Part shown: positions 28,309 to 60,660 of the stretch, piece after piece
How positions within the stretch are numbered: position 1 is the first letter of the stretch
Layout: the number at the start of each line of letters is the position of its first letter
NCBI RefSeq assembly: GCF_001613405.1
Contig: NZ_BDCH01000014.1
Span: 62,001 to 126,000, forward strand
Length of the DNA: 64,000 nucleotides
DNA from: Nocardia crassostreae
GTDB lineage: Bacteria > Actinomycetota > Actinomycetes > Mycobacteriales > Mycobacteriaceae
Reading direction: 5' to 3'
The notes under the pieces: model-generated
The model's database searches: none
What the model saw: only the letters and a program-made list of their open reading frames with translations
What the model was told of the DNA's origin: nothing
Position numbers and translations under genes: made by a program

Positions 28309-30039
<1,731 letters not shown>

Positions 30040-36003: not shown

Positions 36004-36069
36004 GGGCTTTCCTTTCACGTTGCGAACAGGGGTCGACTCATCATCGGCGCTCCCCGGAGTCCGCTGCGA

Positions 36070-36105
36070 GGGGCGAAAGTCCCGGGTTCGAGCGACGGCC
36101 GTTCC
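36070..36105. promoter_or_regulatory. DosR-type boxes of hrp1
   Basis: GGGGC-GAAA-GTCCC (36070-36083) is a strong match; a weaker GCGAC-GGCC-GTTCC (36092-36105) follows with starts 22 bp apart. The near box is 66 nt upstream of the hrp1 start. Confidence 0.65.
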
Positions 36106-36201: not shown

Positions 36202-36398
36202 TGCCGGAGCACGCCGTGCGGGCGCATCGTCGAAGCTGAGGACAGATCTGCGGCACGGCCTCGGGGAGATGAGCGATGGACCCGGTAGCCGGTATAGCGG
36301 GTCCGCACCGATGTACCGGCGGTCGTCGTGCCCGAGGATCATCCCGTCCGGATCGTCACCGGCGAATCCTGGTGGCCCGCAACGACGAAAGGAACACA

Positions 36399-37097
36399 GT
36401 GAACTACGTACTGGTCCGGACCGCGGAACCGGCCTTCGCGGTCGCCGGGACGCTCGCGAAAGTGATGGAGGCATCGGTGCACACCGTGCCCGCCGACGTA
36501 TCCGACGACGACTTCGTGCGGGCGCTCGGGGATCCCGACGCCGTACTCGGCGTCGTCGCCCACGATGACAGGGTGTGGGATGTCCTGCGGCGCTGCACTG
36601 TTCCCATCGTACTGGTGCCCGCCGGCACCGACCCCGTGCAGTACGACATCGACCGGGTGCTGGTGCCGCTGGACGGTACCGACGAGGCCGCGCACGCGGT
36701 GTCGGAGACCGTCCGGCTGTTCGGCGCGGCCGGTTTCGAGATCGTCGTCCTGCACGTGTTCGACCGCGGCACCGTCCCCGCGCACTGGGATCAGGCCGCG
36801 CACGCCCGCGATGCGTGGGAGCACGAATTCGTCGCTCGATATTGCACTCCCTACTTTCCCGGCGTGTGCCAGACACTGACCCTGCGCAGCGGGGTGCCCG
36901 GTGACATGATCGTCGACGTCGCGGCCGAGCACGCCGATCTGATTGTGCTCGGCTGGTCGCGCCAGCTGTTGCTCGGCCGTGCGCGGACTGTGCGCGGAGC
37001 CGTCGCCGGCGCCTCGGTCCCGGTCATGCTGGTGCCCGCCGCATCCGGTCGAAAAGGGTGGGTAGCAGCCATTTCCCGCACATCCCGCCCGGAGTGA
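36399..37097 (+). CDS. Universal stress family protein, degenerate first half
   Basis: 232 residues, GTG 36399 behind GAAAGGAAC. Residues 1-85 are a short degenerate USP-like part (YVLVRTAEPAFAVAGTLAKV, GVVAHDDRVWDVLRR, VPIVLVPAG). The second half is a USP domain (DRVLVPLDGTDEAAHAVSET, then ADLIVLGWSRQLLLGRART). The G-x2-G-x9-G-S loop is not kept, so ATP binding is doubtful. It differs from the other four USP loci here and its partner is unknown. Confidence 0.7.
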   Translation: MNYVLVRTAEPAFAVAGTLAKVMEASVHTVPADVSDDDFVRALGDPDAVLGVVAHDDRVWDVLRRCTVPIVLVPAGTDPVQYDIDRVLVPLDGTDEAAHAVSETVRLFGAAGFEIVVLHVFDRGTVPAHWDQAAHARDAWEHEFVARYCTPYFPGVCQTLTLRSGVPGDMIVDVAAEHADLIVLGWSRQLLLGRARTVRGAVAGASVPVMLVPAASGRKGWVAAISRTSRPE

Positions 37098-37124
37098 GCG
37101 AGTATCGCAGCGGTTCCGGTGCCG

Positions 37125-37138
37125 GGGACGAAAGTCCG
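37125..37138. promoter_or_regulatory. DosR-type box before the Met/His-rich microprotein
   Basis: GGGAC-GAAA-GTCCG, one of the best core matches in the window; a palindrome GGGAGCTCCC at 37147-37156 sits at about the tandem spacing. The box is just behind the USP stop (37097) and 129 nt before the microprotein start. Confidence 0.65.
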
Positions 37139-37267
37139 TTCCGACTGGGAGCTCCCGCCGCGGGGCCCGCTCCATCCGGCCCTGAGACTACGCCGGTCGC
37201 TGCCGCATTCTCGACAGTACGGCGATGCCCGGCAGGCATCGGAACGAACCAGAGGAGATGAACGACC

Positions 37268-37363
37268 ATGATGGAACTGCACCACATGCTGCACACGATG
37301 ATGATGTGGCTGCACCAGCAGGGCGTCCTCCCGCCGATGGAGATGGACATGGGCATGATGTGA
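37268..37363 (+). CDS. 31-residue Met/His-rich microprotein
   Basis: A short frame from ATG 37268 to TGA 37363 with 11 Met and 4 His among 31 residues: MMELHHMLHTMMMWLHQQG, then a short PP-linked MEMDMGMM tail. AGAGGAG stands 11 nt before the start. The first 18 residues could form an amphipathic helix with a Met/His face and one Trp. The composition is like copper- or silver-binding peptides; alternatively it is a membrane-surface peptide. No family is known to me. It lies alone between two USP genes, behind a strong DosR-type box. Confidence 0.5.
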   Translation: MMELHHMLHTMMMWLHQQGVLPPMEMDMGMM

Positions 37364-37537
37364 GCGGCCCGAGGGCATTGCTCATTACCACCGATCGGCC
37401 CGCGACATCCCTCCACACCCTCACCAGGCCGAATGGTGCCTCCGATGCGCGGGATTGAAGACAGCCACTCGCTCACTGTGCGCGTCCGGCGACGGGCGTA
37501 CCCCCGGTGTAGGTGCCGTGCACATCTGCGCTGGACC

Positions 37538-38425
37538 TCAGCGGCAGAGCAGGACCGGGCAGGGTGCGTGGTGCAGCAGATGCCGGCTCGTGGAGCCGAA
37601 CAGCGCGGCGGTCGCGGTATCGCGGGCGCGGGTGCCGACCACCAGCAACTGGGCGTCTCGCCCCAGCTGCGCCAGGACGGTGCCGGGCACACCGGGTATC
37701 GCCATGTCGGCGACGTCGACCTCGGGGTGCGAGGCGCGGTGCGGAACGAGCGCTGCCGCCAGGACCGCACGTTCGGCGTCCGTGCGGTCGCCCACGCGTC
37801 CCACCGGCTCGATGCGGTCCGGCGGCCAGCAGTGCACGGCCCGCAGGGGCACCCGAAAGGCCGCGGCCAGTTCGAATCCCAGGTCCAATGCCGTCGTGCT
37901 GAGCGCCGTTCCGTCTACGCCCACCGCGATCGGTTTGCGCGAGGGGATCGGGCGGCCCGCTGTGCCGCGCCAGACCGCGACCGGGCAGTGGGCGTGGCGG
38001 GCCACCTCCATGGTGGTCGGGCCGATCAGCCTGGCATCCCATGCGGTCTGTGCCCCGACCACCAGCATGAGCGCCCGCTCGCTCCGCGAGACGAGCGCGG
38101 ATCCGGCCGGTACCGAGAGGATCTCGGTGCTCACGGGCAGTTGCGGGGCACAGCGGCGGACCAGTGCGGCGGCGTGTTGAGCGGTGCGATCTGCGGCCTC
38201 ATGCCTGCGCGGCGCGCTGGCGATGACCAGTGGTTCGTGCATCGCGTCGGCGATATAGGCCGCCCACCGGACGGCATTGAGCGATGTCGCCGAACCATCG
38301 ACCCCGACGACGACGGCGCTGCGATCGGAACGACCTCCGGTCAGCTCGGCCCCGCCTGCGGCAACGTGGTGATCAACCGAAGTCTGAGGAACGGCATGGG
38401 CTTTCGTCGTTCGTGCGCACATCAC
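37538..38425 (-). CDS. Universal stress protein, two tandem USP domains
   Basis: 295 residues from Met 38425 (a later start at about residue 35 would fit the domain edge). Domain 1 [20 protein letters not shown], domain 2 IAVGVDGTALSTTALDLGFE. In domain 2 the loop is GTRARDTATAALFGSTS, keeping G-x2-..-G-S in modified form; domain 1 has GAQTAWDARLIGPTT, where the glycines are partly lost. So only domain 2 is likely to bind ATP. It has its own DosR-type box (38473) and converges with the microprotein. Confidence 0.8.
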   Translation of the reverse strand: MMCARTTKAHAVPQTSVDHHVAAGGAELTGGRSDRSAVVVGVDGSATSLNAVRWAAYIADAMHEPLVIASAPRRHEAADRTAQHAAALVRRCAPQLPVSTEILSVPAGSALVSRSERALMLVVGAQTAWDARLIGPTTMEVARHAHCPVAVWRGTAGRPIPSRKPIAVGVDGTALSTTALDLGFELAAAFRVPLRAVHCWPPDRIEPVGRVGDRTDAERAVLAAALVPHRASHPEVDVADMAIPGVPGTVLAQLGRDAQLLVVGTRARDTATAALFGSTSRHLLHHAPCPVLLCR

Positions 38426-54672: not shown

Positions 54673-54933
54673 CTACTTCGCGGGCTGCCCGCGCAGTACG
54701 GCCAGCCTGCGAGCGTATTCGGTGTCGTCGATCTCGCCGCGCGCGAAGCGCTGTGCCAGCACCGCCTCCGCGGTGGGCGGCTCGTGCGGGGTTGCCGGGC
54801 GGTCGAAGTCGCGGGCGGTGAGCCGCACGACGAGGACTATGCCCGCGATGATGAGGGCCCAGAACAACAGCATGCCCACGCCCATTCCGGCGAAGCCCCA
54901 GCCGTTCATATCGTGGTCGTACCAGCGCATCAT
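54673..54933 (-). CDS. Membrane protein with SHOCT domain
   Basis: 86 residues: a Met/Gly-rich start (MMRWYDHDMNGWGFAGMG), one hydrophobic segment (LLFWALIIAGIVLVVRLTA) and the SHOCT pair-helix motif ARGEIDDTEYARRLAVLRG at the end. SHOCT is a short protein-interaction domain. Its start overlaps the stop of the flavodoxin gene (ATGA), and it is the last gene of the SDR-flavodoxin-SHOCT unit. Confidence 0.75.
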   Translation of the reverse strand: MMRWYDHDMNGWGFAGMGVGMLLFWALIIAGIVLVVRLTARDFDRPATPHEPPTAEAVLAQRFARGEIDDTEYARRLAVLRGQPAK

Positions 54934-59453: not shown

Positions 59454-59529
59454 GACAAACAATCCTCTCGAACAAGTCGGCTTCGGCAAGGTCACTGTAC
59501 ATGGCAGCATGCGATGCCGCCGCCGGACA

Positions 59530-59543
59530 GAGACGAAAGTCCC
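59530..59543. promoter_or_regulatory. DosR-type box of the PNPOx gene at 59004-59453
   Basis: GAGAC-GAAA-GTCCC, 76 nt upstream of GTG 59453; a strong core match with the GAAA spacer used also before hrp1 and the microprotein. Confidence 0.6.
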
Positions 59544-59739: not shown

Positions 59740-60660
59740 ATGCAATACCAAGTGAGCCTGTGCGAAACCGCACCACAGACCGTGCTGCGGGTGCCGCACG
59801 AGATACGTTCGGATCTGCTCAGCGACGGGATCATGAGCGGAATGCTGGAGCTGGCCGGTGTGGCGGCGCGCGCCGGGCTCATCTCCAATGGCGCGCCGAG
59901 CATCACCTTCCACCACGAGTTGCCCGTGTCCGATGCTGTCGTGGTCGACTTCGGGTTGCCGGTGGAACCGGCGCCGAATCTCGGGCCCGCCTCCGGCGGC
60001 CACATCGACATCCAGCCCGCCACCCTGGTCGCTCGCACCTGCCATCGCGGCAGCTATCGCGATCTCGACGCCGCCTATCGCGCACTGCGCGAATGGCTGC
60101 GGGACTCCGGCTACCGGCCGATCGGACCGCCCACGGAGTCCTATCTCGTCGGACCGGACGAGGTGCGCAACCCGCGCGAGCTCATCACCGAGATCCGTAT
60201 TCCCATCGCGCCCGCGCCCGCTCTCGTCGTGCATCTCGACACCGGATTCGCCGAGACGGTCACCCGGACGCGGGAAGCCTTGCGGCAAAAGGGGTTCGGA
60301 ATACTGTTCGAAATCGACGTCCAGTCCGTCCTGCGCGAGCGCCTGGGCGAGCACATCGAGGACTACCTGATCCTGGGCGCCTGCCATCCGCGGCTGGCCT
60401 ACCAGGCGCTCGACGCCGACCGGCAGGCCGGGTTGCTGCTGCCGTGCACTGTGGTGATTCGCGCCGACGAGACGGGCTTCCTGGTGGAGGCCGCCGACCC
60501 CGCAGTCCTGGTCGGCGCCACGTCCCAAGGGTCTCTGCGCCTGATGGCCTTCGAGGCCCGGCGACTGCTGGATGCGGCACTGCACAGCCTGCGCGAGACC
60601 GCCGCGCACCCGGGCGTTTCCGGCGGCCGTGATCATGCGGCCGCCACGGAGGCCCGCTGA
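59740..60660 (+). CDS. GyrI-like domain plus DUF302 protein (copy 2)
   Basis: 306 residues, ATG 59740 ([20 protein letters not shown]). GyrI-like half: [43 protein letters not shown]302 half: [53 protein letters not shown]. Paralogue of 42758-43660 with the same domain order. The C-terminus adds a His-containing tail. Role unknown. It is followed by ppsA, 112 nt downstream, with its own boxes. Confidence 0.75.

Follow-up and report, generated by a model that had tools for sequence, protein, structure and literature searches.

The window, that is, the whole 64-kb stretch of DNA analysed here, contains a short open reading frame (37268-37363, plus strand) that encodes 31 residues, including 11 Met, 4 His and a single Trp, as stated in the initial annotation. 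Judging from its relatives and pN/pS values, this frame is a real microprotein gene, referred to below as type I. The conserved core of the peptide, H5-M26 (H5, H9, M12, M13, W14, H16, G19, P22, M24 and M26), is encoded by positions 37280-37345 (+). The Shine-Dalgarno-like AGAGGAG described previously is present (37251-37257, +) and has similar counterparts in relatives, but the distance to the ATG is 10 nt rather than the reported 11 nt. The peptide gene lies, as originally described, between two universal stress protein (Usp) genes, both matching PF00582: one upstream (36276-37097, +), with a mechanically assigned start, so that the true start may be later, and a convergent one that is its 3' neighbour (37538-38425, -). 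A DosR-type box, GGGACGAAAGTCCG (37125-37138, no strand), with one mismatch to GGGHCNWWNGNCCC, is found 129 nt 5' of the ATG. The upstream Usp gene runs in the direction of the peptide gene and ends 27 nt before the box, so that the peptide gene might also be co-transcribed from further upstream. A consensus scan of positions 37050-37560 identified neither a sigma-70-like promoter nor a terminator.

The surroundings of the gene are of the dormancy-regulon type. According to Pfam, the window encodes a GAF-GAF-HisKA_3 histidine kinase (28309-30027, -), DosS-like by architecture, as well as a WS/DGAT, an M50-CBS protease, an Hsp20, a CBS protein, several Usp and a nitroreductase. In the other loci, a comparable location among regulon-type genes was recognized by ORF families, 10 representatives of which were scanned against Pfam. 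Two additional sites in the window resemble the DosR-type consensus, namely, GGGACTTTCGCCCCT (36069-36083), a 12/12 match just 5' of the probable start of a CBS-domain gene, and GGGACTTTCGTCTCT (59529-59543), an 11/12 site before a gene called at 59740-60660 (+).

Taken alone, the box upstream of the peptide gene is weak evidence, within chance. The initial annotation regarded it as one of the best in the region, and GGGACGAAAGTCCG is indeed the only exact GGGAC-N4-GTCCG in the 64-kb window; however, it is one of 14 sites that score at least 10 on the 12-position DosR-type consensus, and two of these score higher. When one mismatch to GGGAC-N4-GTCCG is allowed, the window contains 13 matches, compared to 17.3 in shuffled sequences, so that the case for the gene rests on comparison with relatives.

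A search with the single peptide against 60 genomes, namely, that of the window plus 59 relatives, yielded one close relative in genome G019 (76% identity, E 8e-9) and weaker ones with HxxMMWLHxxGxxPPM in common. Profiles built from these matches detected 39 places in 34 of 150 Nocardia-like genomes (E<=1e-4) and, in a family sample of 401 genomes, relatives in 23 genomes of seven other genera (E<=0.002). A strict core DNA pattern, applied to one genome per species (84,980 species), matched 25 stretches, which belong exclusively to Nocardia, Rhodococcus or Antrihabitans; none is from Mycobacterium. By this distribution, the window very probably derives from a Nocardia. The two matches outside the genus in an order sample of 298 genomes (E 0.009 and 0.035) and the two weak non-self matches in a phylum sample of 396 genomes (E 0.02 and 0.035) were taken as chance. 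Among plasmids, a 28-aa Rhodococcus-type query found no match, and a 34-aa query retrieved a single Rhodococcus plasmid at E=1, which was accepted because the match is located between genes for a SHOCT-domain protein and a WS/DGAT. One relative, WP_257792470.1 from plasmid pRWAY01 of Rhodococcus sp. WAY2, is annotated as 'hypothetical protein'.

Altogether, 74 type I places were fetched, of which five (L088, L149, L151, L152 and L153) were not convincing and were set aside, so that 69 loci remained. L130 has no start codon in reach, which leaves 68 loci for start-based counts, and L087 and L138 were also excluded from the residue count, which covers 66 peptides, 64 of them distinct. A 5- or 6-of-6 match to AGGAGG precedes the gene in 59 of the 68 loci with a start codon, the start codons of relatives having been picked to favour such a match. 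In nine of ten groups of relatives, several of which are pairs with few changes, pN/pS is 0.05-0.38, as appropriate for selection acting on the protein sequence; the tenth group, a pair, differs by three nonsynonymous and no synonymous changes. The presence of relatives in 34 of the 150 genus genomes and the low pN/pS answer the question of chance. The initial annotation had proposed checking relatives for a conserved frame and considered stops or frameshifts in box-keeping relatives as evidence against the gene. The frame indeed recurs in many Nocardia-like and other-genus genomes, and its disruption is not general, although three loci look broken: L084, where only a 22-aa reading remains that appears frameshifted, L130, and L008 (G026), with an internal TAG. 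The relatives, pN/pS and the gene content of the window support both the conservation of the microprotein and its location in an island of the dormancy type.

On this comparative evidence, the microprotein family is real, and it is without a match in the libraries searched. Pfam, NCBIfam, PHROGs, PADLOC and PDB sequences gave no convincing match (best E 0.056-0.2, for one or two members of the family and against entries with unrelated names), so the original statement that no described family is known holds within these collections. PDB profile matches to an ion transport protein (E 0.08 and 0.1) were taken as chance. A search of an open-access library of published papers, judged on titles and the beginnings of abstracts, found no description of the peptide. 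The spread over several genera was not part of the initial annotation, nor were the SHOCT neighbour and the second peptide family described below.

In 28 of the 69 loci, a SHOCT gene of the same orientation is the direct neighbour of the peptide gene, being located 3' of the peptide in 15 genus loci and 5' of it in 13 others. The encoded protein is small, begins with a Met/Trp/Gly-rich segment and contains a single hydrophobic helix as well as a SHOCT domain; PF09851 scored above cut-off in both copies scanned. In the window, the gene for such a Met/Trp-rich small membrane protein (54673-54933, -; PF09851) is unlinked to the peptide gene, lying ~17 kb away. Within the genus, this SHOCT protein (E<=1e-12; best 35 candidates per genome scored) is found in 31 of 34 peptide genomes versus 42 of 116 others (Fisher p 5e-9, with phylogeny ignored). 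Among the 30 SHOCT loci that were read, a type I peptide adjoins in 12 and a peptide of the second type in 2; the 16 loci with neither count against an obligate pair. Given that adjacency occurs in two gene orders, a functional link is suggested, and the SHOCT protein is the likely partner of the peptide. In L066, L069 and L079, a further small hydrophobic protein is encoded ~90 nt 5' of the peptide-SHOCT pair on the same strand; the one in L066 consists of 75 aa and shows a DUF3040 match below cut-off.

For the box count, we used the published relaxed DosR/DevR consensus, NNNGGGHCNWWNGNCCCBNN (PMC2947987), as GGGHCNWWNGNCCC, with 820 windows from the same loci as controls. Within one mismatch, it is found upstream of 20 of 41 genus-type loci compared to 6.8% of the control windows, and exact matches occur in eight genus-type upstream regions, six of which are near-identical, compared to 0.7% of the controls. 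With GGGACTTNNGNCCCT, which we take to be the DosR-type consensus, scored at 10 or more of 12 positions, the corresponding values are 22 of 41 and 3.3%. Hence, boxes of the type that the initial annotation assigned to the peptide gene are enriched before its relatives, but 21 of the 41 genus-type loci have no box within one mismatch. In the other genera, neither GGGHCNWWNGNCCC (2/27 versus 5.6% of controls) nor GGGACTTNNGNCCCT (1/27 versus 2.6%) is enriched directly 5' of the peptide. There, GAAAGACBCTG, a motif picked after inspecting the sequences and belonging to a box related to the DosR type, is present ~90-130 nt 5' of the SHOCT start in all 13 SHOCT-first loci and nowhere else in these loci. 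Because the box is enriched in the genus loci and this motif precedes SHOCT in 13 of 13 cases, the peptide gene is likely to be under direct DosR control, and the family likely belongs to a DosR-type regulon.

The peptides share the core [M/H]-x3-H-x2-M-M-[W/C]-L-H-x2-G-x2-P-x-M-x-M, which we numbered from the first core His (position 0). In the 64 distinct peptides, His is found at 0 in 61 (Cys in two, Met in one), Met at +3 in 61 and at +4 in 63, Trp at +5 in 46 (Cys in 10), His at +7 in 51, Gly at +10 in 63, Pro at +13 in 61, and Met at +15 in 53 and at +17 in 49, with Met (48), His (8) or Cys (1) at -4, bearing in mind that the anchoring rule favours H/C, M and G at counted positions. An ordinary MAFFT alignment of 43 sequences agrees with these counts: H9, M12, M13 and P22 are conserved in at least 90% of the sequences, and G19, M24 and M26 are invariant. 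Position +2 is occupied by F, M, I, V or L in 63 of the 64 peptides, whereas Leu, Ile or Val replaces Met only once each at +3 and +4. A Met with a plain hydrophobic role would be expected to swap with these residues, as at +2, and therefore Met +3 and +4 appear ligand-like. Overall, Met accounts for 34.7% and Cys for 2.4% of type I residues. In helix geometry, positions -4, 0, +3, +4 and +7 fall within 100 degrees, and AlphaFold2 predicts a single helix spanning residues 2-18 (mean pLDDT 80, pTM 0.38), which is modest evidence for so short a chain. Two variants are of unusual length, namely, the 44-aa peptide of L136, with an internally duplicated core, and the 41-aa peptide of L072, which ends in repeated Met-Pro units.

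Inspection of the surroundings of SHOCT genes that lack a type I peptide uncovered a second, Cys/Met/Trp-containing microprotein of ~21-25 aa (type II), encoded at L222:1914-1982 (+), L222:17193-17261 (-), L223:2524-2592 (+), L224:8707-8787 (-), L225:2427-2507 (-), L226:679-759 (+) and L227:7316-7396 (+). With a type II profile, matches were obtained in 7 of 331 family genomes (E<=0.0022), the window's own genome having none. The type II gene is located directly 5' of SHOCT in L224 and L227, and ~0.6 kb 5' of it in L225. In L222 and L223, it lies in copper-resistance clusters: within ~10 kb, there are genes for ATPases that score above the TIGR01511 (copper) cut-off, as well as for a multicopper oxidase-like protein, a CopZ-like protein and regulators of the MerR family, the models for these last three scoring below the NCBIfam cut-offs. 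That types I and II fill one position beside SHOCT is the strongest indirect argument for soft-metal binding by type I.

A P1B-type ATPase, recovered as two overlapping frames, is encoded 3' of SHOCT in L224; it is 74-77% identical to the copy that comes after the L062 type I peptide and 67-70% identical to those that follow the peptide and SHOCT in L066 and L079. ORF family F3, in which several classes of P-type ATPases were mixed, was re-read by motif. The P1B-type group comprises L062:6137-8533, L066 (+0.6 kb), L079:6598-9018, L140 (-6 kb) and L224:6548-8377. TIGR01511 is above cut-off in L062 and L079; however, the TM6 motif is TCPDALGLATPTA (CPD, not CPC) and there is no CxxC, which weakens the inference of copper from the adjacent ATPase. 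Overall, most type I loci have dormancy-type neighbours, and only a minority are located close to metal genes: multicopper oxidases of one ORF family are present in 4 of the 69 loci and FTR1-type permeases adjoin the peptide in 3, one representative of each having been scanned.

The initial annotation suggested Cu(I) or heavy-metal binding from the composition of the peptide, and binding of Cu(I) or another soft metal is indeed the best-supported reading. We consider it somewhat more probable than all alternatives together that the family represents a DosR-regulon micro-metallopeptide whose helix carries the metal along one side and which functions jointly with the SHOCT protein. Under this scenario, a DosS-like kinase would be activated by low oxygen or NO and its response regulator would bind the box. 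The peptide, whose translation and cellular location we infer, would be produced jointly with the one-helix SHOCT membrane protein, its likely partner. It would form a short helix with [M/H](-4), H(0), M(+3), M(+4) and H(+7) on one face, followed by the G-x2-P-x-M-x-M tail, and these side chains would hold Cu(I) or another soft metal. The peptide would then be a small buffer or shuttle that contacts the SHOCT protein and that acts, in a few species, with the P1B-type ATPase.

The principal alternative, clearly less probable but deserving serious consideration, is a metal-free membrane-surface peptide, that is, an amphipathic Met-rich helix that lies on lipid or on the SHOCT protein and serves as a small subunit or a regulator, comparable to the small membrane proteins CydX and AcrZ, with Met providing flexible hydrophobic contacts. 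Such a role is consistent with the linkage to a membrane protein gene, the single predicted helix and the majority of neighbours not being metal genes, but does not readily account for the near absence of Leu, Ile and Val at +3 and +4, where +2 varies in just this manner, for Cys in two of the three exceptions to His at 0, or for the Cys/Met peptide that can occupy this position 5' of SHOCT. An improbable further option is a redox or haem peptide, in which His and Met, both possible haem ligands, would ligate haem in an oligomer, or Met oxidation would sense oxidants or NO; the hypoxia/NO-type island would be a suitable setting, but the adjoining metal genes, where present, belong to copper or heavy-metal families. 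Even less likely is a cis-acting leader peptide or attenuator of the next gene. By a crude gene finder with at least one miscall (L086), the gene that follows has the orientation of the peptide gene in 47 of the 68 loci but is convergent in 21, and its identity varies between loci (SHOCT, FTR1-cupredoxin, P1B-ATPase, WS/DGAT, KasIII, NuoF-like, Usp and others); moreover, the peptide gene is 3' of SHOCT in 13 loci and selection acts on the amino-acid sequence. Finally, a chance frame, to which the overlap of the site with other frames and a box within chance might point, is rejected given the same core across species and genera in both the genus and family searches and the low pN/pS.

If the micro-metallopeptide reading is correct, a candidate conserved member of this kind is added to a dormancy-type regulon and the SHOCT membrane protein gains a likely partner, which suggests that oxygen shortage and the handling of copper(I) are coupled. 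For M. bovis, a copper response specific to hypoxia has been reported (PMC9048740). We further propose, with somewhat less than even confidence, a hypoxic Cu(I) module of Nocardia and Rhodococcus, undescribed in the sources searched, in which the helix-forming His/Met micro-metallopeptide or its Cys/Met counterpart would serve the SHOCT protein and, in some species, the CPD-type P1B-ATPase. Such a module would connect the handling of copper(I) under low oxygen with the dormancy regulator. The small size of the peptide permits direct synthesis and testing, and the two peptide types at one gene position constitute a natural experiment on Met/His versus Cys ligation.

The window shares its box type with the DosR regulon of Mycobacterium tuberculosis, for which the consensus TTSGGGACTWWAGTCCCSAA has been published (PMC2275270). 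The likeness extends to the island, with its kinase, Usp, Hsp20, CBS, WS/DGAT and nitroreductase genes. To our knowledge, no peptide of this kind belongs to the M. tuberculosis DosR regulon. MymT, the copper metallothionein of M. tuberculosis, likewise is small and was initially missed by annotation, but is described as a Cys-rich protein of 4.9 kDa (PMC7558416), whereas type I is not Cys-rich and relies on Met and His; type II bears Cys but is shorter. The Ag(I)/Cu(I) site of SilF/CusF, composed of a His, two Met and a Trp cap (PMC10656224), corresponds to the ligand set of the peptide; however, these proteins are described as five-stranded beta barrels with a fold-assembled site, in contrast to the one predicted helix of the peptide. 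Pfam and NCBIfam gave no match to the SilE/PcoE family, and SilE itself was compared by motif and description. SilE is a periplasmic protein of 143 residues with no aromatic residue (PMC10080550), whereas the peptide has 31 residues, no evident signal peptide and usually Trp or Cys at +5. In both cases, the putative or known ligands are His and Met only, arranged as in the silver-binding motifs HXXM, HXXMM and MX2H of SilE, which gains helix on Ag(I) binding (PMC10080550), and the HXXM/MXXH spacing on the predicted helix of the peptide points to a SilE-like way of working.
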